From Synechococcus sp. CBW1107 (lineage in GTDB: Bacteria; Cyanobacteriota; Cyanobacteriia; PCC-6307; Cyanobiaceae), in NCBI RefSeq assembly GCF_015841355.1, contig NZ_CP064908.1:1426001-1490000 (forward strand): 64,000 nt of DNA, read 5' to 3'. The position numbers and the translations under genes are program-made. Below the pieces are notes generated by a model. That model ran no database searches. It was not told the origin of the DNA and was given only the letters and a program-made list of their open reading frames with translations. Below are positions 10,136-60,393 of the stretch, one piece after another; within the stretch, counting starts at the first letter, position 1, and each line of letters begins with the position of its first letter.

Positions 10136-11944
10136 TCAGCGGCGCGGGGTCAGACAGTAAGGGCACTCCAGCCATTCATCCCTGAGTCCTGCCCCGCAGC
10201 CCTGGCAGGTCAGGGTGGTGAGGGCCTGGGCGCGCCGCTGGGATTCCAGTTCGGTGTCGGTGAGCAGCATCCGCTCCACCTCCTCGAGGGTGGTCTGGCC
10301 GTGGCGCACCAGTTCCAGGCCATAGACCAGCAGGGATTTCATGCCGGTCTCGATCGAAAGATTGCGGATCACGTCGGTGCTGGCGCCCTTGGCGATGGCA
10401 CTGGCGAGGTTGTCGTTGATTCTCAGCACTTCGTAGACGCCGATGCGGCCCTTGTAGCCCCGTCCCTGGCAGACGGGACAGGTGCTGCCGTCGGCCCTGG
10501 GTCCCCGATTGGCTTTGTAGAAGGTGACCGACTGCTCCTGGCTGGCGAAGAGGCCGAAATGGCCCAGCTCTTCCTCCCCTGGGTGGTAGGGCACGCGGCA
10601 CGACTCGCAGACCTTGCGCAGCAGCCGCTGGGAGACGATCCCGATCAGGGAGGCACTCACCATGAAGGGCTCCACGCCAATCTCATTGAGCCTGGCGATG
10701 GCACTGGGGGCGTCGTTGCAGTGCAGGGTCGTGAGCACCAGGTGGCCGGTCAGGGCTGCCTCGATGGCGGTCTTGGCCGTCTCTCCATCGCGGGTTTCCC
10801 CCACCAGCAGCACATCCGGGTCCTGCCGCATGAAGGCCCGCAGGGCGGTGCTGAAGTCGTAGCCCTTGTCGCGGTTCACCTGGGTCTGGGTGATGCCCTT
10901 GAGCATGTACTCGATGGGATCCTCGACGGTGGAGATGTTGATGCCGGGCTCGTTCCGTTCCGAGAGCAACGAATAGAGCGTGGTCGATTTGCCCGACCCG
11001 GTGGGCCCGGTCACCAGCACCATCCCGAAGGGCCTGGCGCCCATCGATCGCACGGTGCTCAGGGCGGCCGGCTCGGTGATCAGCCGCTCGAGGCCCAGAC
11101 GGGTGCTGCTGCTGTCGAGCAGACGCAGCACCACCTTCTCCCCCCAGCGGCCTGGCAGGGTGCTCACCCTCAGTTCGATCGTGCGGCCGCGGAACATCCG
11201 GCGGATGCGGCCGTCCTGGGGCATCCGCCGTTCGGCGATGTCCAGCTCGGCCATGATCTTGAAGCGTGAGGTGACCGCCGGCGCCAGGCTTCTGGGCAGG
11301 TGTTCGACCGGATGCAGCACACCGTCCTGGCGAAAGCGGATCCGCAGCCCGTCCTCCTCCGGCTCCACGTGGATGTCGCTCGATTCCGACTCCATCGCCT
11401 GGATCAGGATGCGGTTCACCAGGCTCACCACCGGTGAGGCGTTGGAGGCTTTGAGGCTGGCCTCAAGATCCAGCTCCTGCTCCTCGGCAGCGGGCGCCTC
11501 CTCCAGGCGGTCCTCCAGGCTCAGACCCTCCAGCAGCGAGAGGCCGTTGGGCTGGGAGGTCAGGGCGGTGTCCTCGCTGGGGCGATGACGCCAGTCAGCC
11601 ATCTTCTGCTGCAGCGCTTCGCTGATCTCCTCCTGCAGCCCCAGACGCAACTCCGGTGTGATGCCGTTGGCCAGCACCGCCTCCTCCAGCTGCCGGCGCT
11701 GCTGTGCCTGCCAGTGGCTGGGGATCGCGATATGGAGCCGCTCTCCCTGGCGCACCAGGGGCAGGGCCACCCACTCCCGCCAGTGCTGGGCGTCAATCCT
11801 GGGGCAGGCCTCAGCGGCCCGCGGATCGGCCAGCTGCAGGTCCGCAGGGAGCAGCAGTTTCTCACCGCTGAGCAGCTCGGCCTCCAGGCGCCGCTGCTGG
11901 AGCGTTTCGGCCGCAGGGACCGGGCGTGTCGCCAAGAGGGTCAT
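10136..11944 (-). CDS. pilB: Type IV pilus assembly ATPase PilB
   Basis: This is the extension motor of the type IV pilus. An N-terminal MshEN-like region ([11 protein letters not shown]) is followed by the GspE core: [17 protein letters not shown], Walker [11 protein letters not shown], Walker [30 protein letters not shown], and a tetracysteine zinc site (CESC...CPVC) before GRIGVYEVL. After the usual end there is an extra C-terminal zinc-ribbon-like tail, CQGCG...CPYC. The start at MTLLATRPV leaves about 100 bases to the divergent grpE; an upstream ATG would overlap grpE. Confidence 0.92.
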
Positions 11945-12041
11945 GGCCGAGGCCGCAGGGATCAGGTGCGGGCTTCCGCCGCTTGTGGGAGGAGCCCGTC
12001 GACCAGCAACATGTTTAGGACCGATCGGCGTTGCAGTCAGC

Positions 12042-12779
12042 ATGAGCGGCGAAGCCACTCCCTACCCACAGGATCCCTCCGCCTACCCGCAGGATCCCTC
12101 CGCCGGGGCGGAGTCCCTGAAACAGGACCTTGACCCGCTGGGGGGGGACTCTCCGGCCGACACCGGCTCAGCCGAGCCGGCCTCCAGTGATCCGCAGCCC
12201 ACGGCAACGGGGGCCGCGGAGGAGGATGCCGAGTCTGTGACCCAGCGTCTGTCCGCGGAACTCGAGACCCTGCGGCGGGAGCATGAAACGCTGCGCGGTC
12301 AGTACATGCGCATCGCCGCCGACTTCGACAACTTCCGCAAACGCCAGAGCCGTGATCAGGAGGATCTGCGCGTGCAGATCGCCTGCTCCACCCTCAGCGA
12401 GATCCTGCCCGTGGTCGACAACTTCGACCGCGCCCGTCAGCAGCTTGATCCCCAGAGCGAGGAGGCCCTGAGCCTCCACCGCAGCTATCAGGGCCTTTAC
12501 AAGCAGCTGGTGGATGCCTTCAAGCAGCTGGGGGTGACCCCGATGCGGGTGGAGGGTGAACCTTTCGATCCCAACCTGCACGAAGCGGTGCTGCGCGAGC
12601 CCAGTGACCTGGTGAGTGAGGACGTGGTGATCGAGGAACTCCAGCGCGGCTATCAGCTGAACGGGCGCGTGCTGCGCCATGCTCTGGTCAAAGTCTCGAT
12701 GGGACCGGGTCCCGGGGCCTCGGAGGGGGTCGCGCCCCCGGCCCAGGACGGGGCAGCGGGTGGTGAGGAATCCAGCTGA
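12042..12779 (+). CDS. grpE: Nucleotide exchange factor GrpE
   Basis: GrpE is the DnaK nucleotide exchange factor. A long acidic, low-complexity N-terminus begins with two copies of a YPQDPSA repeat encoded by a 21-base DNA repeat. It is followed by the coiled coil and the family segment [15 protein letters not shown], and by the C-terminal beta domain ([30 protein letters not shown]). 245 residues. The TGA stop overlaps the dnaJ ATG (ATGA), indicating translational coupling. Confidence 0.95.
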
Positions 12780-34831: not shown

Positions 34832-35128
34832 TTGACACAGTCCAGGCCTCAGGATCGCTCAGCTGATGCTGGCCAGCACTTCCCGCAGGCGATCCGCCGC
34901 TGGGGGAACAGCCTGGCGGTCAGGCTCCCGGCCGATTGCCTGCGTCAGGCCGGACTGCAGGAAGGCGATCAGATCGACATCGTCGTTGGAGCTGATGGCC
35001 GCCTGAGCCTGGAGCCTCTGCGCAAGCTGGATCGCTCTGTCCTGGCCGCTGATCTGCGCCAGCTTCAGGCCACCATGCCTCTCACCCCTTCGGTGATCGA
35101 GGAATGCCGCGGCGGTGAACGCTGGTGA
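34832..35128 (+). CDS. AbrB/MazE-type antitoxin (VapB-like), copy 1
   Basis: The swapped-hairpin DNA-binding domain reads QAIRRWGNSLAVRLPADCLR, then GLQEGDQIDIVV. The C-terminal arm (DRSVLAADLRQLQATMPL) would wrap the toxin. The start TTG is chosen because it aligns with the GTG of copy 2 and lies downstream of the operator; an earlier ATG lies inside the palindrome. 98 residues. It is followed after 13 bases by a PIN-domain gene. Confidence 0.8.
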   Translation: MTQSRPQDRSADAGQHFPQAIRRWGNSLAVRLPADCLRQAGLQEGDQIDIVVGADGRLSLEPLRKLDRSVLAADLRQLQATMPLTPSVIEECRGGERW

Positions 35129-35141
35129 CGCTGAGCCCTCG

Positions 35142-35504
35142 ATGATCTATCTCGACACCAGCGTGGTGGTGGCTCTGCTGACCCCGGAAGAACGCAGTGC
35201 CCAAGCGCTCGACTGGTTTGCGGAATCCCGCGACTTCCTGATCAGCAGCGACTGGCTGATCACCGAGACCCACAGCGCCCTGGGGATCAAGCAGCGCCAT
35301 CACGGCCTCAGTTCTGAAGTACGCCAGGCCGCTGGGGAGCAGTTCGAGCGCCTGCTGCAGGGCGGTGTGGAACTTCGCTCCCTCGATCGCGACCGCTTTC
35401 ATCAGTCGGTGGCCTCGCGCAGCCGCTGCACCCATCTGCCCAGCTTCGATAGCTGGATGCAGCAGGCTGCAGCTGCCCTCGGGATGATGTCAGCACTGGA
35501 GTAA
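35142..35504 (+). pseudogene. VapC-like PIN-domain toxin, copy 1, with internal deletion
   Basis: The N-terminus MIYLDTSVVVALLTPEE holds the first PIN aspartate, and ITETHSAL the conserved glutamate. Compared with copy 2 (41835-42257), 60 bases are missing in frame after DRDRF, removing the segment that carries GDALHLA with the third acidic residue. The protein would be 120 instead of 140 residues. Loss of this acidic residue should abolish the RNase activity while the fold may still bind antitoxin. Confidence 0.8.
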
Positions 35505-41528: not shown

Positions 41529-41821
41529 CTTCTTCCGGGCCTCAGGGCTCTTCCCCGGATCCAGGTAGGCACTTCCAGCAGGCGATCCGCCGCTGGGGCA
41601 ACAGCCTGGCCGTTCGGCTCCCCACGGATTGCCTGCGTCAGGCCGGCCTGCGGGAAGGCGATCAGATCGAGATCGTGGTTGGCCCTGATGGCCGACTGAG
41701 CCTGGAGCCTCTGCGCAAGCTGGATCGCTCTGTCCTGGCCGCTGATCTGCGCCAGCTTCAGGCCACCATGCCTCTCACCCCTTCGGTGATCGAGGAATGC
41801 CGCGGCGGTGAACGCTGGTGA
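41525..41821 (+). CDS. AbrB/MazE-type antitoxin (VapB-like), copy 2
   Basis: 98 residues. It is nearly identical to copy 1 from QAIRRWGNSLAVRLP to the end; differences are a few substitutions (T for A in LPTDCL, R for Q in GLREGDQ, E for D). The GTG start aligns with the TTG of copy 1. It is followed after 13 bases by an intact PIN toxin, so this locus is probably functional. Confidence 0.85.
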   Translation: MTSSGPQGSSPDPGRHFQQAIRRWGNSLAVRLPTDCLRQAGLREGDQIEIVVGPDGRLSLEPLRKLDRSVLAADLRQLQATMPLTPSVIEECRGGERW

Positions 41822-41834
41822 CGCTGAGCCCTCG

Positions 41835-42257
41835 ATGATCTATCTCGACACCAGCGTGGTGGTGGCTCTGCTGACCCCGGAAGAACGCAGTGCCCAAGCG
41901 CTCGACTGGTTTGCGGAATCCCGCGACTTCCTGATCAGCAGCGACTGGCTGATCACCGAGACCCACAGCGCCCTGGGGATCAAGCAGCGCCATCACGGCC
42001 TCAGTTCTGAAGTACGCCAGGCCGCTGGGGAGCAGTTCGAGCGCCTGCTGCAGGGCGGTGTGGAACTTCGCTCCCTCGATCGCGACCGCTTTCGCCAGGC
42101 AGCGGATCTGCTCCAGGATCCGGGGCTCGGCCTGCGCCCGGGTGACGCCTTGCATCTGGCGGTGGCGCTGCACAGCCGTTGCACCCATCTGGCCAGCTTC
42201 GATAGTCGGATGCAGCAAGCCGCGACTGCCCTCGGGATGAGGCCGGCACTGGAGTAA
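41835..42257 (+). CDS. VapC-like PIN-domain toxin, copy 2 (intact)
   Basis: A 140-residue PIN-domain RNase. Acidic active-site residues are seen in IYLDTSVV, ITETHSAL, RPGDALHLAVAL and LASFDSRM. In other VapC toxins the targets are tRNA or rRNA; the target here is unknown. It is paired with the antitoxin at 41525-41821 and has the full catalytic set that copy 1 lacks. Confidence 0.85.
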   Translation: MIYLDTSVVVALLTPEERSAQALDWFAESRDFLISSDWLITETHSALGIKQRHHGLSSEVRQAAGEQFERLLQGGVELRSLDRDRFRQAADLLQDPGLGLRPGDALHLAVALHSRCTHLASFDSRMQQAATALGMRPALE

Positions 42258-47723: not shown

Positions 47724-48860
47724 TCAGGCACATGACTTATCACCAAGCAACGGCATTTGCTTGGCACGGCTCCCATCAAGCTGATGGGGCCACTTCGCGG
47801 GGGCAGGCGCCAGTCGGGGCTGATTGCTCGCGCCGCCGAGAGCCTTGCGGCCGCGGCATTTGTACCGCGGGTTTGTCGAGTCCAGGACCCTCAACACTTC
47901 GCGGAACTGTCCCTTTGGCGTGATCGCCAGCAGAACCTTCGCCGCCTCCACGATCGGCTTGATCGCCCGAGCAAACGCAGGATCGCTGATCAGGGTGTGC
48001 ATGGGCCGCTGCCGGAAGCCGACCTGCTCGCCTTTGCTGTTGATCAGAACCGGCCTGGTCACCGGGTTGATCTCCTTCAGGGCCTGATAGACCTGAGGCG
48101 GAATGCGGTGATACACGAGATCAGCGAGGCAGCTCGCTGTGGCGGGAGACCCCCAGCGATGTCCAACGACCGATTCGTAGAACTGCCGGAACTGGGCATC
48201 AAACAGAGGTTCAGGGCGCTCTGTACCGAGGTCGATCCAGGCTTCCAGCAGCCGCTCTTCCACCGAGCGGTGGTCCACGATCCCAAAGGCCTGCTGGCAC
48301 AGCGCGATCAGTGAAACCTCAGCGCCGATCTCCAGCATGCGCACTGCAGCCGGGCCATAGGTCCGCGACGTCCGGCTGAGCTCCCCCCAGAAGCGGATCA
48401 GCGTCTGGTGGTCCATGGTCGTCGCATAGCCAGCGGGCCCCGCAAAGGGCACATCCAGCAGCAGAGGCCCTGGGCAGGGCGTGCTGGCCGCTGGATCACC
48501 TGCGATCACAGGGATCTGGGCAGGCCCTGGTTCAGGCATGTTCCCCTGAACAACGCGCTCGATAGTGCGTTGAGCCTGGGAGTTGGAGAGCATGTGCACC
48601 GAGGCCGCGGCGCTCCGCATCGAGAAGCGGAAGCTGCCATCCGGCATCAGGAAGGCGTCCAGCGTGGCAGGGCCGTAGCGGACCTTGCGCAGCTGCGCCG
48701 CGTAGGCGTTGGCTTCAGCTGGGGGCTGAATTTCCTTGAGGTGATCCAGTCCCCTGGGCTTTTTGGAGCTGCGGTTGACAGCAATCGGGGCCTGTTCAGC
48801 CTCGTAAACAAGACGCGCGCAATCTGGCTGCGCGCTCAGTGGCGCGGTAGCTTCGGTCAA
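47724..48860 (-). CDS. P63C-domain-containing protein
   Basis: The C-terminal half has the P63C pattern: LADLVYHRIPPQVYQALKEI, then RQRPMHTLISDPAF and LLAITPKGQFREVLRVLDST. The N-terminal half, with YGPATLDAFLMPDGSFRFS, fits the same family. 378 residues, ending in a basic, probably disordered tail. P63C proteins occur on phages and plasmids; their function is not established. Confidence 0.8.
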   Translation of the reverse strand: MTEATAPLSAQPDCARLVYEAEQAPIAVNRSSKKPRGLDHLKEIQPPAEANAYAAQLRKVRYGPATLDAFLMPDGSFRFSMRSAAASVHMLSNSQAQRTIERVVQGNMPEPGPAQIPVIAGDPAASTPCPGPLLLDVPFAGPAGYATTMDHQTLIRFWGELSRTSRTYGPAAVRMLEIGAEVSLIALCQQAFGIVDHRSVEERLLEAWIDLGTERPEPLFDAQFRQFYESVVGHRWGSPATASCLADLVYHRIPPQVYQALKEINPVTRPVLINSKGEQVGFRQRPMHTLISDPAFARAIKPIVEAAKVLLAITPKGQFREVLRVLDSTNPRYKCRGRKALGGASNQPRLAPAPAKWPHQLDGSRAKQMPLLGDKSCA

Positions 48861-49788: not shown

Positions 49789-50059
49789 AGCCCGAGCCCA
49801 GTCGCTCATCGCCCGGCGGGGAACCGTCGGGCTCTTCTGCGGCTGTAACTGGGGACGGCTGCCGCGAAGGCCTGTTCACGGTACGGGGCGGCTTCAAGGA
49901 CCCGCCTGGGTCAACTCTTTGATGATCTGCTGATCGAGCGCCAGGCCGTGCAGGAGTCCAACTGGATCCAGTAGCTGCGGGAGGATCTGCAGGGGCAGCA
50001 ACCTGAGGGGAGTCCCCACCGTTTCAATGGCTGAGACCACGGTTCCAGCACTGCCTGCC

Positions 50060-50410
50060 ATGTCCGTCTCGTTTCGGGAGGAGGACGTGGATCTCTCGCG
50101 GCTGCCGGAGGACAGCCGCGATATCGAGTCCCAGGCCTTTGTGGATGCGGTGTTTGCCCTGTATCAGGAGCCGTATGAGGGGATGGAGGGCAGCTTCTCC
50201 TGCTCCTACACCGAGGGACTGTTTGAAATCAGCTGGATCCCCCTGGGCGATCCCGGCACCGAACTGATGCAAGTGCGTTGGCTGTTGGAAGACGGCCGCC
50301 ATGAGGAGGCCATCCCTCTGCTGGAGCAGCTGTTGGAGCGTGAACCCGACAACCTGGAGGCGCGCCACGTGCTGATGATGGTGCTGAACGGCCACCGGCT
50401 GCTCAGCTGA
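50060..50410 (+). CDS. Short TPR protein with the N-terminal domain shared with 55302-56417
   Basis: Residues 1-70 (MSVSFREEDVDLSRLPEDSR ... SFSCSYTEGLFEISWIPLG) match the pattern of the N-terminus of the protein at 55302-56417 (SIEEAGFDASLLPEGSR ... VVFAAGRIEVAWEP). One TPR unit follows (LEDGRHEEAIPLLEQLLERE, PDNLEARHVLM), then a stop. 116 residues from the second ATG; an earlier ATG adds 11. It is convergent with the AcrVA2-like gene (8-base overlap). Function unknown. Confidence 0.55.
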   Translation: MSVSFREEDVDLSRLPEDSRDIESQAFVDAVFALYQEPYEGMEGSFSCSYTEGLFEISWIPLGDPGTELMQVRWLLEDGRHEEAIPLLEQLLEREPDNLEARHVLMMVLNGHRLLS

Positions 50411-51377
50411 GCCCCACATACACCGGCTGGAACCACTGCATCCGCCGGCTCTGACGCTTCTCACCATGCAGAACGGTGTGCCAATGGCCCCGGCGCCAGT
50501 GGGGCCGCCGGGCGGCACCGCCGCCCCCCCCTGAGGTGCTGTTGCTGGCGCCAGCCCTGGGGGTGCGATCGAGCCGGAAGTCCTTGCCGATCCACACCGG
50601 ACCCTGCGGGCTCACCGTGCCCTCTGGATCGGCAGCACCGGCGAACCCCTTGCCGCTGCGCACCTTGGCGGCGGGGCCGGTGGAGAGCAGTTCCGGCTGG
50701 TAGAGCTGCACCAGCAGGGCATTGATCGCCAGGCCCTCCATCCGCTGGTTGGTGCTCTGCACCGCCTGCTCGTCCCACTGCCAGGCCGGATGACTGAGGT
50801 CATCGACCGTGGGGTTCCGCTCGCCGATCTGCTCAAAAGAATGGCGGGTGAGGTAGCTGGTGCCATCAAGCGCTAGTCCCACACAGCTGATGCCACCGAT
50901 CCGCTGCGCCTGGGGCGGCAGCCAGTCGGCCATCGCCCGCAGGTCGGCCACGATCACCACCGGGATCGGCACCTTGGCTTCCGTGAACAGGGCGCCATCG
51001 GGGAGCATCAGCCGGAAGCAAGGCAGCACCTGCGGGAAGTCCTCATCCAGACGGGGAGAGGGTGTGCGGCGGAAGGCCTCGGCCAGCTCCGGCGCCAGGA
51101 AGCGGGGCGGGGTCTCCACGATCCGAGCCCAGCGGCAGGTGGTCGCCGCCCAGAAGCCGATCGGATCGTTCAGTTCATCCATCACCTCCAGCCCCGCCTC
51201 GATCAGGGCGGCATAGGCCAGGTGATTGGCCCAGCTCTGGAAGCCCCGCGGTGAGCGGTAGCGGTGCTGCTCCTGCTGGATGTAGGGGTCCTGGCGGCGC
51301 AGCTCGGTGATCACCGTGCCGATCGGCGGCAGGTCGGCCTGGCTGGCCCGAATCGATTCAGGCGTCAGCCGACTCAT
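50403..51377 (-). CDS. MGE-encoded protein with AcrVA2-like C-terminus
   Basis: 324 residues. The C-terminal 35 residues read RRPHWRRGHWHTVLHGEKR and QSRRMQWFQPVYVGLS. From memory, the type V anti-CRISPR AcrVA2 ends with a very similar RPHIRRGHWHG...RVRWQPAVFV pattern and has about the same length. A low-complexity glycine/serine linker (about 273-288) precedes it. The N-terminal part (PYIQQEQHRYRSPRGFQSWA, FWAATTCRWARIVETPPRFL) is not recognised otherwise. AcrVA2 blocks Cas12a production by engaging its nascent chain; homology over the whole length is not shown here. Confidence 0.6.
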   Translation of the reverse strand: MSRLTPESIRASQADLPPIGTVITELRRQDPYIQQEQHRYRSPRGFQSWANHLAYAALIEAGLEVMDELNDPIGFWAATTCRWARIVETPPRFLAPELAEAFRRTPSPRLDEDFPQVLPCFRLMLPDGALFTEAKVPIPVVIVADLRAMADWLPPQAQRIGGISCVGLALDGTSYLTRHSFEQIGERNPTVDDLSHPAWQWDEQAVQSTNQRMEGLAINALLVQLYQPELLSTGPAAKVRSGKGFAGAADPEGTVSPQGPVWIGKDFRLDRTPRAGASNSTSGGGGGAARRPHWRRGHWHTVLHGEKRQSRRMQWFQPVYVGLS

Positions 51378-51441
51378 CGAGGCGTGAGCGGGGGATTGCC
51401 TGGCTGAACCACGAGGTTGGTCACGTTCACCTGGGTGGCTG
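51374..51441 (-). pseudogene. C-terminal remnant of the 88-aa protein gene
   Basis: The minus strand encodes TQVNVTNLVVQPGNPPLTPR and a stop, matching the end of the gene at 53748-54014. The stop overlaps the ATG of the AcrVA2-like gene (ATGA). The N-terminal part is missing; the sequence to the right is unrelated to the intact gene. Confidence 0.75.
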
Positions 51442-52092: not shown

Positions 52093-53660
52093 GTGGTGTA
52101 ACTCAGGAGGTCCTGTGACCCTCTCCGGAGGGTGAACAGGAGCAGTCAGGGGATGACTGCTTGGAAGCTGATTGCGCAGCTCCATTGATCCATTATGAAC
52201 CCTGATCGCTGAATTGGCAACTCAGCGATCGATGTGTTCTGTGTAGATCGAGGTAGAAGCTGGTGCGCTTCAGCTGATGGTTGCAGCCGGCTGGGCGTTC
52301 GGATCTGCATCGGTGAGCTCCAAGGGCTCTTCTGGCTCTGGGATCTTGGCCATGGTGGCCTCAGAGAAGAAGCGGCGACGCTCCAGCTGCCATTCCTCCT
52401 GCTGCTCCAGCAGCTGGCTGCCCACCAGGCGCACGATCGCTGGATCATTGGGGAAGATGCCGACCACGTTGGTGCGGCGTTTGATCTCCTTGTTGAGGCG
52501 CTCGAGCGGGTTGGTGCTCCAGACCTTGCGCCAGTGCTCCTGGGGGAAGTGCAGGAAGGCCAGCACGTCGTCCCGGGCGGCTTCCATCACGGGCACGGCG
52601 CCGGGGAACTGCTTGCGCAGCATCTCGGTGACCCGCTGCCAGTGGGCGCGCACCTGATCTGGAGCCTGGATCACGAACACCGCTTTCATGGCAGCGGCCA
52701 CCATGTCCTGGCCGGCCTTGGGCACATGGCTCAGCAGGTTGCGCAGGAAGTGCACCCGGCACCTCTGCCAGCTACTGCCCTGGAACATCCGCTTGATCGC
52801 TGCCGTCAGGCCCAGGTGGGCATCCGAGATCACCAGGCGGGTGCCGTCGAGGCCACGCTCCTTGAGTGAGCCCAGGAACTGACGCCAGAAGCCCTCCGCC
52901 TCGCTGTCGCCCACGGCAATGCCGAGAACTTCGCGGTAGCCGAGGGCATTGATGCCGATCGCCACCACCACCGCCCGCGACACCACCTGCATATTTCGGC
53001 CCAGGCGGCCGTGGAGGTAGGTGGCGTCGAGGTAGACGTAGGGAAAGCGGGCATGGTCAAGCGGCCGGCCCAGAAAGGCTTTCACCTGCTCATCGAGCCC
53101 CTGGCAGATGCGGCTCACCTCCGATTTGGAGATGCCGCTGGCCCCGCCCAGCGCCTCCACCAGGGCGTCGACCTTGCGGGTGGAGATCCCGCCGGTGTAG
53201 GCCTCCATCACCACGGCGTAGAGCGCCTTGTCCACCCGGCGGCGTGGCTCCAGCCAGCTGGGAAAGAAGCTGCCCTGCCGCAACCTGGGAATGGCCAGGC
53301 TGAGGTCGCCCACCTGGGTGGTGAGCAGCCGCTCCCGGTAGCCGTTGCGATGGGTGGAGCGCTGATCGGGGCAGCGCTCATGGAGTTGAGCGCCCGTGAG
53401 GGCAGAAACCTCGGCTTCCAGCAGGTCCTGGAAACCCCGGCGCACGATCTCTGGGATCAGGGCGCCAGCGGTGGTGCCCTCCATGAGCTGGCTCAGCTCG
53501 GAGGCGCCACTATGGGTGAGGGTCATGGTCTGTGTTCGGTTTGGTGGTAGTTCTCCGAACAGGGTCACAGACCGGCCCACCCATTGCCACAGCTGAAATC
53601 TGAGGGAGGTGAGCCGTCAGCCCCGGCTACGCCGGGGCTGATCCTCCTGAGTTACACCAC
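52093..53660 (-). mobile_element. IS256-family insertion sequence, 1568 bp
   Basis: Inverted ends GTGGTGTAACTCAGGAGG at 52093-52110 and its complement at 53643-53660 enclose a mutator-type transposase. No target duplication is visible next to the ends, so flanking DNA has rearranged since insertion. It stands between two copies of the 88-aa/AcrVA2-like gene junction. Confidence 0.85.
52270..53526 (-). CDS. IS256-family (mutator-type) transposase
   Basis: A DDE transposase of 418 residues from MTLTHSGAS. Visible are the N-terminal SALTGAQLHERCPDQRSTHRNG, YVYLDATYLHGR with the first D, VISDAHLGLTAAI with the second D, WQRCRVHFLRNLL (C/D-x2-H) and the last glutamate in STNPLERLNKEIKRRT. It appears intact. 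Confidence 0.93.
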   Translation of the reverse strand: MTLTHSGASELSQLMEGTTAGALIPEIVRRGFQDLLEAEVSALTGAQLHERCPDQRSTHRNGYRERLLTTQVGDLSLAIPRLRQGSFFPSWLEPRRRVDKALYAVVMEAYTGGISTRKVDALVEALGGASGISKSEVSRICQGLDEQVKAFLGRPLDHARFPYVYLDATYLHGRLGRNMQVVSRAVVVAIGINALGYREVLGIAVGDSEAEGFWRQFLGSLKERGLDGTRLVISDAHLGLTAAIKRMFQGSSWQRCRVHFLRNLLSHVPKAGQDMVAAAMKAVFVIQAPDQVRAHWQRVTEMLRKQFPGAVPVMEAARDDVLAFLHFPQEHWRKVWSTNPLERLNKEIKRRTNVVGIFPNDPAIVRLVGSQLLEQQEEWQLERRRFFSEATMAKIPEPEEPLELTDADPNAQPAATIS

Positions 53661-53698
53661 TTGCTGGGACGCCGCTTGTTCGTAGCCCTCCTATTCCT

Positions 53699-53760
53699 GT
53701 GCCGATCGGTGGCAGCTCAGCCTGGCTGGCTCGGATCGATTCAGGCGTCAGCCGACTCGT
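53699..53760 (-). pseudogene. N-terminal fragment of a second AcrVA2-like gene
   Basis: The minus strand encodes SRLTPESIRASQAELPPIG, matching the first 20 residues of the protein at 50403-51377. The start codon is changed from ATG to ACG, and the rest of the gene is gone, replaced by IS256-flanking sequence. Confidence 0.8.
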
Positions 53761-54014
53761 CGAGGCGTGAGCGGGGGGGTGCCGGGCTGAACCTCGAGGT
53801 TGGTCACGTTCACCTGGGTGGTGGCACCATCGGCCCAGCTCACCGTCGCCACCACCATCGGGCTGTTGGGGGTGATCGGTGCGATGGCGGTCACCGTGCC
53901 CCGCGCAAAGGGTCCGCTGCTGGTAGGGGCATCAGGGCCGCTCACCATCGCCATCGACTGCAGGAAGGCCCGGGAGAAGCGAACGGTGTCGCCGATCTGC
54001 AGGGGTGCGCTCAC
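53748..54014 (-). CDS. Small phage-type protein, SH3-like (88 aa)
   Basis: The protein reads LQIGDTVRFSRAFLQSM, GTVTAIAPITPNSPMVVATV and SWADGATTQVNVTNLEVQ, a small beta-barrel pattern as in KOW/SH3-like proteins. In the other copy the gene ends earlier with a stop overlapping the AcrVA2-like ATG; here the same A-to-G change removes both that stop and that start, adding three codons. Function unknown. Confidence 0.6.
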   Translation of the reverse strand: MSAPLQIGDTVRFSRAFLQSMAMVSGPDAPTSSGPFARGTVTAIAPITPNSPMVVATVSWADGATTQVNVTNLEVQPGTPPLTPRRVG

Positions 54015-54056: not shown

Positions 54057-54467
54057 ATGCTGGGTGCACTGCCCACGCCCAGCCCTGCCGTGAAGGACAT
54101 CCGGATCACCACCCAGGACGACCTGCCCGGGCCCGATGGCGATGAGCCCTACGACACGTTCGTCAACCAGACCGAGTACGGCAACGCCCGCTTCCTGCGC
54201 ACCAACGTGCTCTCGGCCCGGCCCGACCTCAAGAAGTACACGTCCTTGCGGTTCCAGCAGGACGTCAAGCGCCATCCCGATGCCGCCGGGCCAGGGCAGG
54301 ACGTGGTGCTGGTGTTCATGGAGGCCCAGGACCTGGAGCCACCGCTGACGCTGGTGTGCAGCGACCTGCACCTGGAGCTGGAGGGCTACCCGGTGGAGCA
54401 GGGGGCAGAGATCGAGATCCCGCTGCTGCCGCCCGGCAGCCGAGGGCCAGCTAAGGGTTTCGGCTGA
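54057..54467 (+). CDS. Hypothetical mobile-element protein (136 aa)
   Basis: Starts at MLGALPTPSPAVKDIRITTQ. An acidic N-terminal half with NQTEYGNARFLRTNVLSARP is followed by a beta-rich part (DVVLVFMEAQDLEPPLTLVC, DLHLELEGYPV). No family recognised. It is transcribed divergently from the 88-aa gene and followed by two further plus-strand genes. Confidence 0.55.
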   Translation: MLGALPTPSPAVKDIRITTQDDLPGPDGDEPYDTFVNQTEYGNARFLRTNVLSARPDLKKYTSLRFQQDVKRHPDAAGPGQDVVLVFMEAQDLEPPLTLVCSDLHLELEGYPVEQGAEIEIPLLPPGSRGPAKGFG

Positions 54468-54537
54468 GGAATCCAGCAAGGAGCGCGCCGCGGCTCTCGA
54501 TACCGTGGGGCTGCTTCCTGCTTGTCCTGGCCCGGCG

Positions 54538-55302
54538 ATGCCTGCCCATGCGCTCCTGCCGGCCGTGAACCGTCTGCTGCAGCAGGTGGAGGAGGCCAGT
54601 GGCCTGCCGGTGGCGGTGGCCCAGCAGAGCGACCTCAGCACCCTGGCCACGGTGCGGCCGGCCACGGAGGGATATCAGGCGCATCTGATCGCCTACCGCG
54701 ATGCCGATGAGGCCAGCAGCTACCACGTGGCCTTTGAGGCCGCCCTGCTGCTTCGCATCGTGCAGGTGCCGCCCGAGAAGCGGGTGAACCTCACCGAGAA
54801 GCGGGAGGCCAGAGAGAAGGTGGTGGCCCAGGTGGAAAAGATGTTCAAGGGCTCCATCGGGCTGGCCCAGGCGCGGAAGGCCGGGCTGCGCTTCTACGAC
54901 GGCCTGATGCTGCAGCTGCGCTCGATGGGTCCGGGGCTGTGGGCGGATCGCTGGCTGTTCGAGCAGATGCCGGAGCTGCGGGGCCTGCAGGCAGCAGTGC
55001 TGCAGGGCCAGGTGCAGCAGAACGTGCCCTGCCTCAATGCGGAGGTTGACAAGATGAGCCCCGCCGCGGTCGTGAAGGCCAGCCGGGCGATGAATGCGGC
55101 CCAGGCCTTCCAGACCGCTGAGCTGTTGGGCGTTCCGCCGCTGGCGATTCCGTACCAGGCGGCAGGGTTCGAGGCCCTGGCCAAGGAGCTGATCGCCATC
55201 ACCCGCGCCGAGCCCGCCACGGCGGATCCAGATCGGGAGATCGTCGATGGCTGGGCCGAGAAGCTGGGCCTGAGCCGCTGGTACGTCTGGAAGACGCCCT
55301 GA
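54538..55302 (+). CDS. Hypothetical mobile-element protein (254 aa)
   Basis: From MPAHALLPAVNRLLQQVEEA. Contains a mixed alpha/beta N-terminus (LIAYRDADEASSYHVAFEAA), a basic helical stretch and a helical C-terminus ending in EKLGLSRWYVWKTP. There is no HExxH or other obvious catalytic motif. Its stop overlaps the start of the TPR gene (ATGA-type), so the two are coupled. Confidence 0.6.
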   Translation: MPAHALLPAVNRLLQQVEEASGLPVAVAQQSDLSTLATVRPATEGYQAHLIAYRDADEASSYHVAFEAALLLRIVQVPPEKRVNLTEKREAREKVVAQVEKMFKGSIGLAQARKAGLRFYDGLMLQLRSMGPGLWADRWLFEQMPELRGLQAAVLQGQVQQNVPCLNAEVDKMSPAAVVKASRAMNAAQAFQTAELLGVPPLAIPYQAAGFEALAKELIAITRAEPATADPDREIVDGWAEKLGLSRWYVWKTP

Positions 55303-56417
55303 TGGAAGGCACTGCGTTCTCGATCGAAGAGGCCGGCTTTGATGCCTCGCTGCTGCCGGAGGGCAGCCGCACCCCTGGCACCGAGGCTTTCCACCGGGCG
55401 GTGACCGACTACTTCCAGTGCTCCTATGCCTCCATGGGCGGGCAGCTGTCGGTGGTGTTCGCTGCTGGACGCATCGAGGTGGCCTGGGAACCCACGGCGC
55501 CGGAGGCACCGGCGATGGCCTCCATCGGTCCACTGCTGCAGCAGCGCCGGTTCGATGAAGCCCGGCCGCTGCTGGAAACCCTGCTGCAGCTGCAGCCCGA
55601 GCACCCGGAGGCGCTCTACAACCTCGGCGTCCTCGCCAGCGAAGAGGGCAAGCCAGAGGAGGCCCGGCTGCTGCTGCGCCGAGCGGTGGTGGCGAACGCC
55701 GACGATGCCCACGCCCAGGCCAATGCCCAGGTGGCGCTGGCCCTGGCCGCGATGCGGCTGGGCGACAAGGCAGAGGCCCGCCAGGCGCTGGAGGCGGCGA
55801 TCGATCTGGAGCCGCAGAACAGCTTTGCCCTGCGCAGCCTGGGAAGCCTGCTGGTGATCGCCGGTGCCTTCGCTGCCGGAGTGGCGCGGTTCCGCCAGGC
55901 CCTGCAGGTGGCGCCAGACGATCTGATCACCACCTTCAACCTGGCCCAGGCGCTGCTGGAGCTCGATCCAGACGAGCACCGCGACGAGGCCGATCGGCTG
56001 CTGTTGCAGGTGATCGAAGCCCAGCCCTACGGCGAGCTGGCGAACAAGGCCAAGGACCTGCGGGGCAGCATCGCCGCCCGCGATCTGCGCGCCGATCAGC
56101 CAGAGGGTTTGCGGCAGGACGCCGTGAGCTACTGCCTTCAGGCCCTGCAGCTGTTCGAAGGGATGGACCAGCAGTGCTTCATTGCCGTGCTCAGCGAGGT
56201 GGCGGCCGTCGGCCAGAGCGGGCTGCAGATCAATGAGCGCGGCACCGCCCGCACCCTCAAGAACCTCCCCGGCAGCTGGAGTGATCTGGCCCTCGCCTGC
56301 CTGATCCACGTGGGCATGAAGCGGCTGACACCCGATGAAGACTCAGGACTGGGCATCGAGGCGGAGTACCAGGAGGCGGTGCGGTTGCAAAGGTTCCGCA
56401 GGGAAGATGCCTCGTGA
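55302..56417 (+). CDS. TPR-repeat protein with a conserved N-terminal domain
   Basis: The N-terminal ~70 residues (SIEEAGFDASLLPEGSRTPG, YASMGGQLSVVFAAGRIEVA) form a domain also seen at 50060-50410. TPR units follow (about residues 75-250): RFDEARPLLETLLQLQPEHP, EALYNLGVLASEEGKPEEAR, DKAEARQALEAAIDLEP and a further one at GVARFRQALQVAPDD. The C-terminal part is helical. 371 residues. Probably a scaffold for protein contacts; partner unknown, with the coupled upstream gene the best candidate. Confidence 0.7.
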   Translation: MEGTAFSIEEAGFDASLLPEGSRTPGTEAFHRAVTDYFQCSYASMGGQLSVVFAAGRIEVAWEPTAPEAPAMASIGPLLQQRRFDEARPLLETLLQLQPEHPEALYNLGVLASEEGKPEEARLLLRRAVVANADDAHAQANAQVALALAAMRLGDKAEARQALEAAIDLEPQNSFALRSLGSLLVIAGAFAAGVARFRQALQVAPDDLITTFNLAQALLELDPDEHRDEADRLLLQVIEAQPYGELANKAKDLRGSIAARDLRADQPEGLRQDAVSYCLQALQLFEGMDQQCFIAVLSEVAAVGQSGLQINERGTARTLKNLPGSWSDLALACLIHVGMKRLTPDEDSGLGIEAEYQEAVRLQRFRREDAS

Positions 56418-56865: not shown

Positions 56866-57132
56866 GTGGGAGCCATGTCTTTCGAGCAGTTTCAAGAATC
56901 AATGACGGTTGTCAGAGATCCATCTCAGCCTGAAGACGAGAAACTTCTTTGCTATGGTGGTTTTATTCATCAACCAAGCGCAGAACTTAACGTCGAAGAG
57001 ATACTGCATATAGTGAGTCGAGGGGACGGGACTTTTTACCTGCAGATAGGCAACATTGAGTATGTTTCAGAATTGGCGGAGTTAGAACACATCCTTTACA
57101 AGTGGGCATTGGATGAATACTGGATAAATTGA
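56866..57132 (+). CDS. Small hypothetical acidic protein (88 aa)
   Basis: The GTG start is preferred: AAGGGAGG lies 7 bases before it, a good ribosome-binding site, while the ATG of MSFEQFQESM is 9 bases further. The protein is acidic (PEDEKLLCYGGFIHQPSAEL, ISELAELEHILYKWAL-like C-terminus). No family recognised. Small, acidic and on a mobile element, it could be an inhibitor or antitoxin-like protein, but this is speculation. Confidence 0.5.
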   Translation: MGAMSFEQFQESMTVVRDPSQPEDEKLLCYGGFIHQPSAELNVEEILHIVSRGDGTFYLQIGNIEYVSELAELEHILYKWALDEYWIN

Positions 57133-57270
57133 TTCTAGGCGCTCATATGTCGACAGATCCTATTCATTCAGCAGAAACCAACAGGCGCACTCCCTCCCCC
57201 TCAATAATACGTCTGTACTGATGGCGCCTCATGGTCAGCGCCTTTAGACTTTTTCAAACACGCGAGATTG

Positions 57271-57597
57271 ATGGATCAAAAAAGTCCAGCATCGATCGCA
57301 CGCCTGCGCGGGTACTCAACTCGCCCCAAGGGATTTCCAATAATAAAGACAATTACTCAGTCCGAGTTTGACCGTGGATACCTTTACGTGTCATCGGGTG
57401 ATTTTATAATGTCGCATTTTCACGCCAACAGCTTTGACGTGAACTTTTTAGGAACGCTGGTTCGTTCGAAATCAATCGTAAGGGGGAGGGTGATTATCGG
57501 CAGGGAAACTATGCGATCTCGCGCGCGCCCTCAAATGGTTATACGCATTGAGCCATCTGAAGGCGATTGCCTTTCTATAAGTGAGGAGACGGATTAG
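57271..57597 (+). CDS. Hypothetical protein upstream of the putative restriction gene (108 aa)
   Basis: Contains FPIIKTITQSEFDRGYLYVS, then VNFLGTLVRSKSIVRGRVII and RPQMVIRIEPSEGDCL. Its TAG stop directly abuts the ATG of the next gene, indicating coupled translation. Not recognised; it could be a specificity or control component of the restriction system. Confidence 0.5.
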   Translation: MDQKSPASIARLRGYSTRPKGFPIIKTITQSEFDRGYLYVSSGDFIMSHFHANSFDVNFLGTLVRSKSIVRGRVIIGRETMRSRARPQMVIRIEPSEGDCLSISEETD

Positions 57598-58482
57598 ATG
57601 TTTTATATACACGAGCCGCTAAAGGCGTTCAGCATTACTGAAAGGAGTCTTGTGTCACCGTTGCTGATTCGCAAGATTAGCTCATTGGGCGGCATTGATA
57701 AACTTGAGGAAGAGCACTGGACTTCAATTTATTGCGAGATCAAGAATATACCCTTCCAGTCTTTTAGCAATGTTTTTGGCAACGACATTGAGCTTTCCGA
57801 TGGGTCCGTTGTCGAAATGAAGTGCATTAGAGTCGGGAGTCTTGAGGACAAGAAGTGGATTATGCATCCCTCCCTTACAAGGGTGGTTCCAGAGTGGTCT
57901 ACTAGTGATTCGGCTCAGGACAATATGTTTATGATAGTAAATGCATACAATGATCTTATATCTAAGACATTTCGGGGGAAGCCAGCCAGATGGGGGATTC
58001 TTCTCTATCTTGGAGACTTTTCATCCTTTATGTACTTCGAATATCCAATCAAGCAGCTAGATCCAAGCCGGCTGGTTGCGCGTTATAGATCAGTAGAGCG
58101 CATTAAGGTATCCAGGCGCTCCACTACTAATCTCTGGGTTTACGACGGCGGCAATAAGATCATGTCTATTACTTCACCCAAGGCGGGGATGAAGATACAA
58201 CCCTATTTCTATGTTCCGGCTCAACATCCAGAGAGATATGTTTTTGATCTTCGGTCGCAGCCAGTTCCTATCGAAAAAAGCATTCAGAGATTAATAGCCA
58301 TGAAAGCCGAGAAGGACAGTTGTTCTCATGATCAAGTAATTGCATCAATCTTGAACCAACAGCATTCCGACTCAAGCGAAGAGTTTGTTGCCGAGCCCTC
58401 GGTCACATTTGAAGTCGTTCAAAAGCTTGGTGGAATTGGGTCTGATTGGAAGACTTCCCTGATCAGGCGGCTAACGGAGTGA
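57598..58482 (+). CDS. Putative type II restriction endonuclease
   Basis: 294 residues. The best candidate for a PD-(D/E)xK nuclease site is VFGNDIELSDGSVVEMKCIR, where Asp and the E-x-K tripeptide could form the active site. Further features are HPSLTRVVPEWST and a beta-rich middle with GILLYLGDFSSFMYFEYPI. Assignment rests mainly on its pairing with the convergent cytosine methyltransferase (20-base overlap) and shared low GC. Confidence 0.55.
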   Translation: MFYIHEPLKAFSITERSLVSPLLIRKISSLGGIDKLEEEHWTSIYCEIKNIPFQSFSNVFGNDIELSDGSVVEMKCIRVGSLEDKKWIMHPSLTRVVPEWSTSDSAQDNMFMIVNAYNDLISKTFRGKPARWGILLYLGDFSSFMYFEYPIKQLDPSRLVARYRSVERIKVSRRSTTNLWVYDGGNKIMSITSPKAGMKIQPYFYVPAQHPERYVFDLRSQPVPIEKSIQRLIAMKAEKDSCSHDQVIASILNQQHSDSSEEFVAEPSVTFEVVQKLGGIGSDWKTSLIRRLTE

Positions 58483-59854
58483 GGTTCGCAAGATTCAGAG
58501 TCTTTATTGTTTCGCTTCCATCAACGAAACAAGGTGAACCTGCGATTAGTGATGCTACAGCTTTACCTAGTACTGGCGGAACAGCGTTCCCTATTTGAAA
58601 GACTCTTTCCATCCGTGTACCACTGACTGCCCAGTCAAGCGGGAATGTCTGCAATGCAAGAAGTGCTTCATCGCTGAGGAATTCATACGTAACATCTAGC
58701 TGATTTCCCTTTCCTAACCTATTGCCAAGTGTATGCCACTGTTGCAACCTGATTTGCGCATCTGGGACTCCATTGGGAGCTATTGCGAGCTTTGCTGCTT
58801 GATGGGCACCAATCGTTGGTGCTGGTTGATCAAGCGTCCAGGTAACCGGTTCATCATGTGGTCTCACTACATTTCTCAACCACAGACATGCCTTTGGACT
58901 AGATATAGCTTCGCTATGCTGATTGCATTGAATGAGTGCCTCGCGAAGTGATTTGGGTTGTGTTTTGAGCGGTATTATGGGATTTGACTTGGGCAGTTCC
59001 GCCTGAAACAGCGAGTTCTGCACGAACTCCTGCTTCTCAGTATCGTGACTTGACGCGATGAAGGGCATATCATGCCTTGAGAAAATCATCAACATTCTTT
59101 CGCGCCGCTGAGCAGCGCCAAAGAAAACAGAATTCCATACCGAATAACTGCATCGATATCCTTGCCAGGTAAATTCATTTTCAATCAGCTGCATGGCTCC
59201 ACCTTTGTGTGCCTTAGCTGATATAAATTGCTTCGTACTGGAGCTGTTGCATTTTGGGCAAACCTCGGCTGCTTCATCTTCTGCAAGAAGTGCTGGCATC
59301 CACTGATTATCGCAATCGAGACATTTTGTTTTCCAGATGTCCGCTCGACTGCTGAGAATTCCCTTTACGTTTTCCAGTAATACATATCTAGGCCGAACAA
59401 TGCTGACGATGCGAGCAAACTCAACGAATAGCATGCCTCTTTTGTCATACACGCTTTGTCGTTGTCCGCTCATAGAAAAGCTTTGGCAGGGCGGTCCTCC
59501 GAACACAAGGTCAACATCTCTCCCCCTCGTTAGACGGCCGAGATTTTTGCGGTCTAAACTCGCTATATCGCGATCATATACAAGCGTGTCTTTGCAGTAT
59601 CTGCCGGTATTGACATTGTCGCGAAGAGCAATCCAGTGCGGACGACTGGCCTGTCGCCTGCTTTTGCTTTTTTCATGCTGGCGAATTAGCGTGATTAGCT
59701 TTTCTTGTTGTCTTGCAAACCGCCGGTTAATTCGTAGGCTCCTGCATGCATGAGGGTTTAGCTCAACAGCTCCAAGTATGTTAAAGCCGGCCATTTCCAC
59801 GCCAATATCCAGGCCTCCTAATCCTGAGAAGAGGCTGAGTGCGGTTGGCTTCAT
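58463..59854 (-). CDS. DNA (cytosine-5) methyltransferase
   Basis: All key motifs of C5 methyltransferases are present: I (LFSGLGGLDIGVEMAGF), IV (FGGPPCQSFSMSGQR, catalytic Cys), VI (LLENVKGIL), VIII (AAQRRERM) and IX-X (RVFQIGNAVPPVLGKAVASL). The target-recognition part lies between VIII and IX. An inserted zinc-finger-like element CLDC...CPKC sits between VI and VIII. 463 residues, full length. Together with the convergent gene it forms a likely type II restriction-modification system. Confidence 0.93.
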   Translation of the reverse strand: MKPTALSLFSGLGGLDIGVEMAGFNILGAVELNPHACRSLRINRRFARQQEKLITLIRQHEKSKSRRQASRPHWIALRDNVNTGRYCKDTLVYDRDIASLDRKNLGRLTRGRDVDLVFGGPPCQSFSMSGQRQSVYDKRGMLFVEFARIVSIVRPRYVLLENVKGILSSRADIWKTKCLDCDNQWMPALLAEDEAAEVCPKCNSSSTKQFISAKAHKGGAMQLIENEFTWQGYRCSYSVWNSVFFGAAQRRERMLMIFSRHDMPFIASSHDTEKQEFVQNSLFQAELPKSNPIIPLKTQPKSLREALIQCNQHSEAISSPKACLWLRNVVRPHDEPVTWTLDQPAPTIGAHQAAKLAIAPNGVPDAQIRLQQWHTLGNRLGKGNQLDVTYEFLSDEALLALQTFPLDWAVSGTRMERVFQIGNAVPPVLGKAVASLIAGSPCFVDGSETIKTLNLANLTPLAA

Positions 59855-60393
59855 GCGGGGGGGCCCAGCCGGAATCTCGGTCTATTGTAGCGCTGCTTCC
59901 CGCGTCCGCTAGTGGGCGGGCCAATGCGAAGTCGCGATGATCCTGCTTCTCTGTCATTCGGATGCGATGGCACATTATTCTCGATCTTATTCGATATAAA
60001 AACTACCGCGATATTGGCGATGATAGCAATTTCTTTGATTTCTGCTGAGCACTTGTTAGCTAGATGAAGGCGGAGCCGGCCATCGGCAGAGCGAAGCTGT
60101 GTTTGCTGCTGCCTGCTGAGGCCCTCTAACTCCGATGAACCGTTGAAGTGAGCACCAATATTTTCCGATCTTGACTCAGTAGCGAAATCCTTGCATTGAT
60201 GATCTTTGTGGGTGTTTGCGAGATGTGTGCTACTGATAATTCCTAGAGCAATAGCCTCTGCCTTGGTCCTGGCCGCCATTGATCTTGCAGAGCAGTCAGC
60301 CACCACCTGCTTCATGGATGCAGGTCGTCTGGTTTTGCAAGTGCCGATGGGTGCAAGCCCGATGGTGTTACCCACTGCGGCCTCTGTCGCCAT
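59851..60393 (-). CDS. Possible protein upstream of the methyltransferase
   Basis: A minus-strand frame whose TGA overlaps the methyltransferase ATG. From the ATG at MATEAAVGN it gives about 180 residues, with AEIKEIAIIANIAVVFISNK as a hydrophobic stretch and a basic tail. No family is recognised and composition is unusual at both ends, so it may be non-coding. Confidence 0.25.
   Translation of the reverse strand: MATEAAVGNTIGLAPIGTCKTRRPASMKQVVADCSARSMAARTKAEAIALGIISSTHLANTHKDHQCKDFATESRSENIGAHFNGSSELEGLSRQQQTQLRSADGRLRLHLANKCSAEIKEIAIIANIAVVFISNKIENNVPSHPNDREAGSSRLRIGPPTSGRGKQRYNRPRFRLGPPA

Follow-up and report, generated by a model that had tools for sequence, protein, structure and literature searches.

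A cyanobacterial prophage protein as a divergent relative of the anti-CRISPR AcrVA2 and the plasmid transfer inhibitor FinQ, and its possible action on a target other than Cas12a

AcrVA2, an anti-CRISPR protein of Moraxella and Shewanella phages (PDB 7CI1/7CI2), is reported to recognise nascent Cas12a and to set off the decay of its mRNA through machinery that these sources describe as not yet identified (PMC13131331, PMC10403363). Tubulin autoregulation by TTC5 in eukaryotes is likewise reported to proceed from nascent-peptide recognition to mRNA decay (PMC10403363); the parallel is drawn as an analogy only, and homology is not claimed. FinQ of IncI1 plasmids is reported to act on the F tra operon by terminating its transcription at multiple sites (PMC8744291), which as a claim differs from mRNA decay.

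Homology searches connect the two bacterial systems. With AcrVA2 of Shewanella phage vB_SbaS_Y11 as the query, 49 phage records and 607 plasmid records were retrieved, and 563 plasmids were typed as conjugative. Among the 60 plasmid rows listed, 50 are annotated FinQ or finQ, and the best FinQ row shares 24.9% identity over 95% of the AcrVA2 query (tblastn). FinQ alone, searched against the PDB with phmmer, matches AcrVA2 at E 4.1e-18. These matches show that FinQ is homologous to AcrVA2, so that an anti-CRISPR and an inhibitor of plasmid transfer are linked, and the two share a tail motif that reads RPHIRRGHWH in FinQ. The records behind this link are an IncI plasmid (L032) and a Shewanella phage (L028). 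A literature search, with bioRxiv preprints and the 2018 discovery paper outside its scope, returned no paper combining 'FinQ' and 'anti-CRISPR'.

The locus compared here with these systems lies in a 64,000-nucleotide stretch of Synechococcus sp. CBW1107, positions 1426001-1490000 of the genome, referred to as the window. It contains a genuine, intact gene with the following parts:

50403..51377, minus strand: intact gene of the AcrVA2/FinQ superfamily, 324 aa, ATG start (ORF call, fold and profile match, dN/dS)
50406..50513, minus strand: C-terminal tail, residues 289-324, HWRRGHWH...G...W..P..V, the proposed effector module (7ci1 and phrog_6160 matches)
50517..50672, minus strand: variable linker, residues 236-287 (highest dN/dS of five regions, 0.312)
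50988..51113, minus strand: second conserved block, in the body, residues 89-130 (1.56 bits per column)

The C-terminal end of the protein, from the ORF translation, is RRPHWRRGHWHTVLHGEKRQSRRMQWFQPVYVGLS. The original prediction had recognised an AcrVA2-like tail, and searches bear this out. Searched alone against the PDB, the protein matches AcrVA2 (7ci1) best, over residues 289-321 and, at E 0.63, weakly; an eight-sequence profile improves this to E 0.013, again in the tail. The PHROG family phrog_6160 matches the tail region only (E 1.7e-5), whereas it covers the annotated AcrVA2 of Shewanella phage Y11 over nearly its full length (1.1e-58). At thresholds up to E 1 or E 10, no Pfam, NCBIfam or PADLOC model matches the 324-aa protein. 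FinQ, two AcrVA2 proteins and five further relatives likewise have no NCBIfam match. With tblastn the protein has no match in the phage collection and two weak cyanobacterial matches among plasmids.

Comparisons between alignments extend the likeness into the body of the protein. Two eight-row alignments were aligned by hhalign over the last third only (98.5%). With 34 window-type and 65 AcrVA2-type sequences, the match covers 218 columns and residues 86-324 (99.0%, E 8.3e-18, hhalign E-values throughout being those of one comparison), and tail against tail gives 98.5% and E 3.8e-15. After removal of the tails, the bodies still give a weaker match in collinear position (80.6%, E 1.3e-5, 42 columns), as they do when gappy columns are also removed (86.8%, E 4.3e-6, 45 columns); 13 controls, one reversed and 12 block-shuffled, reached 0.2-5.1%. 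The stretch behind the tail-less match overlaps the conserved block at residues 89-130.

Structure prediction points the same way. A viral-contig scan with the window-type alignment found 88 relatives, and the 80 best were retained. A first AlphaFold2 model was built from 44 rows, namely the 324-aa protein and 43 viral relatives, none of them from the AcrVA2-type scan, and reached pLDDT 74.3 and pTM 0.73. Its top entries in VIA-align 2 are both AcrVA2: 7ci1 (Z 9.7, rmsd 5.0, 193 residues, model residues 48-324) and 7ci2 (Z 9.4, rmsd 6.2, 213 residues, model residues 36-324), with the next, unrelated chain at Z 2.2. A second model, from 110 rows including AcrVA2-type rows, reached pLDDT 80.9 and pTM 0.80 and gave Z 8.7 and 8.5 for the two AcrVA2 entries and 2.1 for the next chain. 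These scores concern only chains ranked by Foldseek (880 and 386), and best Z values of 7 to 8 are frequent for models lacking a clear Foldseek match, so weight was put on the gap to the next chain and on the aligned length. With Foldseek alone, neither model retrieved a PDB chain at or below E 0.001. The structural alignments show 12-15% identity at an rmsd of 5-6.5 A, and residues 1-47 have no match to AcrVA2 in the 7ci1 alignment. The predicted AcrVA2-like fold thus reaches well beyond the tail.

A resemblance confined to the tail, the outcome that would have counted against the original prediction, is rejected by the fold match, by the profile match over residues 86-324 and by the match of the tail-less bodies. 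The structure and profile alignments that had been suggested as a check instead place the similarity at residues 48-324 and 86-324, respectively. Pocket residues named in a paper were given no weight because they derive from docking.

The AcrVA2/FinQ superfamily is defined here by the fold together with the tail HxRR[GA]HW...G...W..P..V, and the 324-aa protein has both the AcrVA2-like body fold, as predicted, and the C-terminal tail. In a tree of 164 rows, made by a quick method and rooted at the midpoint, the four AcrVA2 rows from Moraxella and Shewanella phages form one starred clade that does not contain the 324-aa protein. FinQ falls with the AcrVA2 rows in a group of 14 (SH-aLRT 84), on a long branch, and the 324-aa protein lies across the deepest drawn split, which separates 59 from 105 rows (SH-aLRT 94). 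Its neighbours there are mainly cyanobacterial, plasmid and viral sequences. From this placement the protein is therefore taken as a member of the AcrVA2/FinQ superfamily and not as an AcrVA2. Profile and model evidence together identify it as a divergent member of a large superfamily of mobile-element proteins that includes AcrVA2 and FinQ, and the wider family that the original prediction had allowed for does emerge from the homology searches.

The protein is phage-borne like AcrVA2 and shares its predicted fold and tail motif, but it stands on a separate branch, in a host with no Cas1, Cas2 or Cas7 matches. FinQ, an AcrVA2 homologue with the same tail motif, differs in being plasmid-borne, in its reported target, the F tra operon (PMC8744291), and in its position on the AcrVA2 side of the tree; the gene described here sits in a chromosomal cyanobacterial prophage and not on an IncI conjugative plasmid.

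Elsewhere in the superfamily, L025 (G151) carries tandem genes at 11636-12715 and 10611-11072, both on the minus strand, which the tree divides: one lies on the side of the 324-aa protein and the other, short and perhaps broken, on the AcrVA2 side. A viral subgroup (L056, L070, L072, L080, L099 and similar) has proteins of about 440-560 aa with an extended N-terminal part.

Gene content places the gene in a prophage. Past the end of the 64-kb stretch there are matches to a major head protein, scaffold, portal, terminase large subunit and primase, in keeping with the phage-like element that had been suspected. The neighbouring genes are listed below, and counts over 19 Cyanobium-type loci take in the own locus, fragments and contig ends:

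45149..46102, plus strand: Gp157-like phage gene (PF05565, E 1.5e-20), same neighbourhood in L038 and L018
46151..47047, plus strand: Rad52-like recombination gene (PF04098, E 4.5e-41)
47724..48860, minus strand: 378-aa ORF, syntenic in L018, L038 and L216, no PHROG match
50027..50410, plus strand: short TPR gene (TPR_19, 2.1e-6), convergent with the 324-aa gene and overlapping its final 8 bases
53748..54014, minus strand: 88-aa ORF, located ahead of the gene at 8 of 18 further Cyanobium-type loci (locus comparison)
54057..54467, plus strand: 136-aa ORF of the divergent neighbour cassette, in 12 of 19 loci, own locus counted
54505..55302, plus strand: 265-aa ORF of the cassette, in 13 of 19 loci, two as fragments; no Pfam match
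55302..56417, plus strand: 371-aa TPR protein of the cassette (TPR_16, 1.1e-16), in 15 of 19 loci, remnants counted

Two neighbourhoods can be distinguished. The Gp157- and Rad52-like genes, two uncharacterised genes and the 324-aa gene form a set that is repeated in L038 and around the second copy of the gene in the same genome (L018). In Cyanobium-type loci the gene is also often divergent from the cassette of 136-aa, 265-aa and 371-aa TPR genes; this cassette, itself divergent from the 88-aa ORF, is Cyanobium-specific and travels with the gene. The short TPR gene resembles a portion of the 371-aa TPR protein at 36% identity, and the 265-aa protein has no relative in the phage collection or the PDB (best PDB E 0.84). 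Loci of the own genome apart, no relatives of the TPR, 265-aa, 136-aa or 88-aa neighbours occur near family members outside the Cyanobium group, and for this reason the neighbours were not made part of the mechanism. A partner gene common to the whole superfamily is rejected, these neighbours being found with Cyanobium-type copies only.

The recombination genes bear on the main rival to the silencing function proposed below. According to this rival, the protein would keep the AcrVA2 fold, and perhaps peptide binding, but act in another way, for example by sequestering a finished protein or by binding nucleic acid within a phage recombination module, with no translation-coupled loss of mRNA. 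A shared fold does not show function, and besides the Rad52- and Gp157-like genes at this locus, Rad52-like genes are found close to the superfamily member at six viral loci that do not belong to the Cyanobium group (L070, L078, L093, L094, L097, L098). Since AcrVA2 and FinQ, as separate relatives, are both reported to act on the expression of their targets (PMC13131331, PMC8744291), this alternative is considered a serious one but on balance doubtful.

Two further features of the window were noted. A low-GC island in the prophage at 57000-60000 (0.46-0.49 vs about 0.65) holds a DNA methyltransferase gene at 58463-59854 and is perhaps restriction-modification cargo. The ORFs at 35115-35504 and 41808-42257, both on the plus strand, have identical first 60 residues and are, judging from motifs, presumably PIN-domain (VapC-type) proteins.

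Viral contigs L038 and L039 encode the protein at 93% and 88% identity, and the nearest named relatives among the 79 loci of the genome scan are 18 loci (L213-L230) with best segments of 60-93% identity, from Cyanobium, Synechococcus, Vulcanococcus and unnamed cyanobacterial genomes. The element is thus cyanobacterial in its closest affinities, as had been supposed. The own genome, a single contig of 3.2 Mb, holds a second full-length copy at 3148153-3149127 (83%, locus L018) and a third at 807175-807928 that has no start and is frameshifted ahead of the tail. Three copies in one genome are also found in Cyanobium sp. Cruz-8D1 (L214, L217, L223) and Cyanobium sp. FGCU6 (L216, L218, L225); in the own genome one of the three is broken. 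A transposase ORF at 6615-8144 (minus strand), which we take to be IS66-like, has near-identical counterparts at 8213-9754 in L018 and 11173-12714 in L019 and there adjoins both other copies of the gene in the own genome.

Further parts lie at the start of the intact copy and upstream of it:

51316..51438, minus strand: 123-bp duplicate, comprising the end of the 88-aa ORF (remnant) and the start of the intact gene, 92% identical to 53699-53821
52270..53580, minus strand: Mutator-family transposase gene (PF00872, E 4.8e-127), between the intact gene and the remnant
53680..53760, minus strand: remnant of a second tandem copy, in which the gene is reduced to its initial 27 codons (81% in tblastn across 27 residues, E 9e-7)

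The intact copy and the 27-codon remnant look like tandem duplicates. In L039 the stop of the 88-aa ORF overlaps the gene start (ATGA), and at the intact copy just 25 of the 88 codons of that upstream ORF are matched. Such losses could mean that the gene is a decaying leftover in this genome and has lost its expression: most of the upstream ORF is gone, a transposase gene separates the copy from its tandem remnant, the third genomic copy is broken, and gene remnants are present in G007 too. The copy at 50403-51377, however, is complete and shares 94% identity with the G105 copy, which is also full length, and purifying selection acts across 14 copies, which makes decay improbable and ranks it below the main rival.

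The pattern of selection is uneven along the protein. Three of the 17 sequences tried showed no N-terminal motif in an open frame and were left out; the remaining 14 Cyanobium-type copies give a pooled dN/dS of 0.173. By region the values are 0.162 (residues 1-87), 0.127 (88-150), 0.136 (151-235), 0.312 (236-287) and 0.099 (288-324). Tail and body are therefore under purifying selection, and the linker alone is looser; in these copies the body (residues 1-235), which takes in the N-terminal part that the original prediction had suggested would define the target, is constrained at 0.13-0.16 and has no sign of diversifying.

Across 99 dereplicated sequences the tail, as had been anticipated, is the most conserved region, residues 288-324 reaching 2.34 bits per column against 1.56 in the block at residues 89-130 and 0.67-1.15 in the other five regions. 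This invariance is in part circular: a tail pattern was among the selection criteria of the two viral scans and of the genome scan. W262, G264, G305, W315 and P318 are also conserved, though they lie outside the search patterns. Of 11 re-examined loci that had been found with the A3 profile, a filter recovered a tail in 8 (7 distinct proteins) and none in 3. The constraint fits a fixed effector tail combined with one conserved target in these phages.

Whether that target could be Cas12a can be judged from the CRISPR genes of the host and its family. Cas1 (PF01867) was found in none of 37 sampled genomes of the host's family, the nine of its own genus included, whereas matches turned up in 14 of the 23 class members from outside the family and in 9 of 14 control genomes. 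Cas2 and Cas7/DevR were each absent from 10 of 10 family genomes, with 4 of 5 and 1 of 5 other genomes positive, respectively, and the own genome has no match to Cas1, Cas2 or Cas7/DevR. Cas12a (TIGR04330) was not matched in any of the 27 genomes that encode family members, that of the host among them, though no control genome matched either. Because Cas1, Cas2 and Cas7 are absent from the host and the sampled family genomes, an anti-CRISPR role in this host, which the original prediction had put forward, is unlikely, even if a CRISPR system lacking all three is still conceivable.

A true AcrVA2 that inhibits Cas12a would account for the predicted fold and the tail, and Acr genes can target the CRISPR systems of further hosts encountered by a phage. 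This explanation, which also ranks below the main rival, is nevertheless highly improbable given the missing Cas genes, the Cas12a count, for which no control genome matched, and the position of the protein outside the AcrVA2 clade; for this host, the same missing genes and tree position lead to its rejection. With the CRISPR genes looked for not found in the host, the silencing of some other gene is probable.

The reading favoured here, with belief and doubt in roughly equal measure, is that the protein is a phage-borne, nascent-peptide-directed silencer of a target other than Cas12a, acting through the conserved HxRRGHW tail. The body (about residues 48-235) would bind a short peptide of one chosen protein during its synthesis, and the C-terminal HxRRGHW[HR] module would then cause loss of the mRNA under translation, whether it cleaves the mRNA itself or engages the ribosome or a host nuclease. 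In this way the prophage would silence one conserved gene, belonging either to its host or to a competing element. Such silencing is favoured by analogy with two relatives from the AcrVA2 side that are reported to lower the transcripts of a specific target (PMC8744291, PMC13131331, PMC10403363), and the constrained body of the Cyanobium-type copies is as expected for one conserved target. Because the 324-aa protein branches apart from AcrVA2 and FinQ, a shared mechanism is an extrapolation.

A broader proposal, put forward more tentatively than the function of this one protein, is that AcrVA2 and FinQ represent a single widespread weapon of mobile elements, in which a retargetable peptide-reading body is joined to a fixed HxRRGHW effector tail. 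Phages and plasmids might thereby destroy the mRNA of one chosen protein during its translation. Cas12a would be one narrow target and the F tra operon a second one, and a third would fall to the picocyanobacterial branch; the 'multiple-site termination' attributed to FinQ would then be co-translational mRNA decay.

These results indicate that an anti-CRISPR fold is present also in prophages whose host gave matches to none of the tested CRISPR genes, and they connect FinQ, a classic inhibitor of plasmid transfer, with that fold. If the proposal is true, the action of FinQ would be directly testable by the logic of AcrVA2, and fold or tail alone should not suffice to name a gene of this kind an anti-CRISPR. 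For picocyanobacteria, it may offer a route to finding the gene against which several related prophages keep a silencer.
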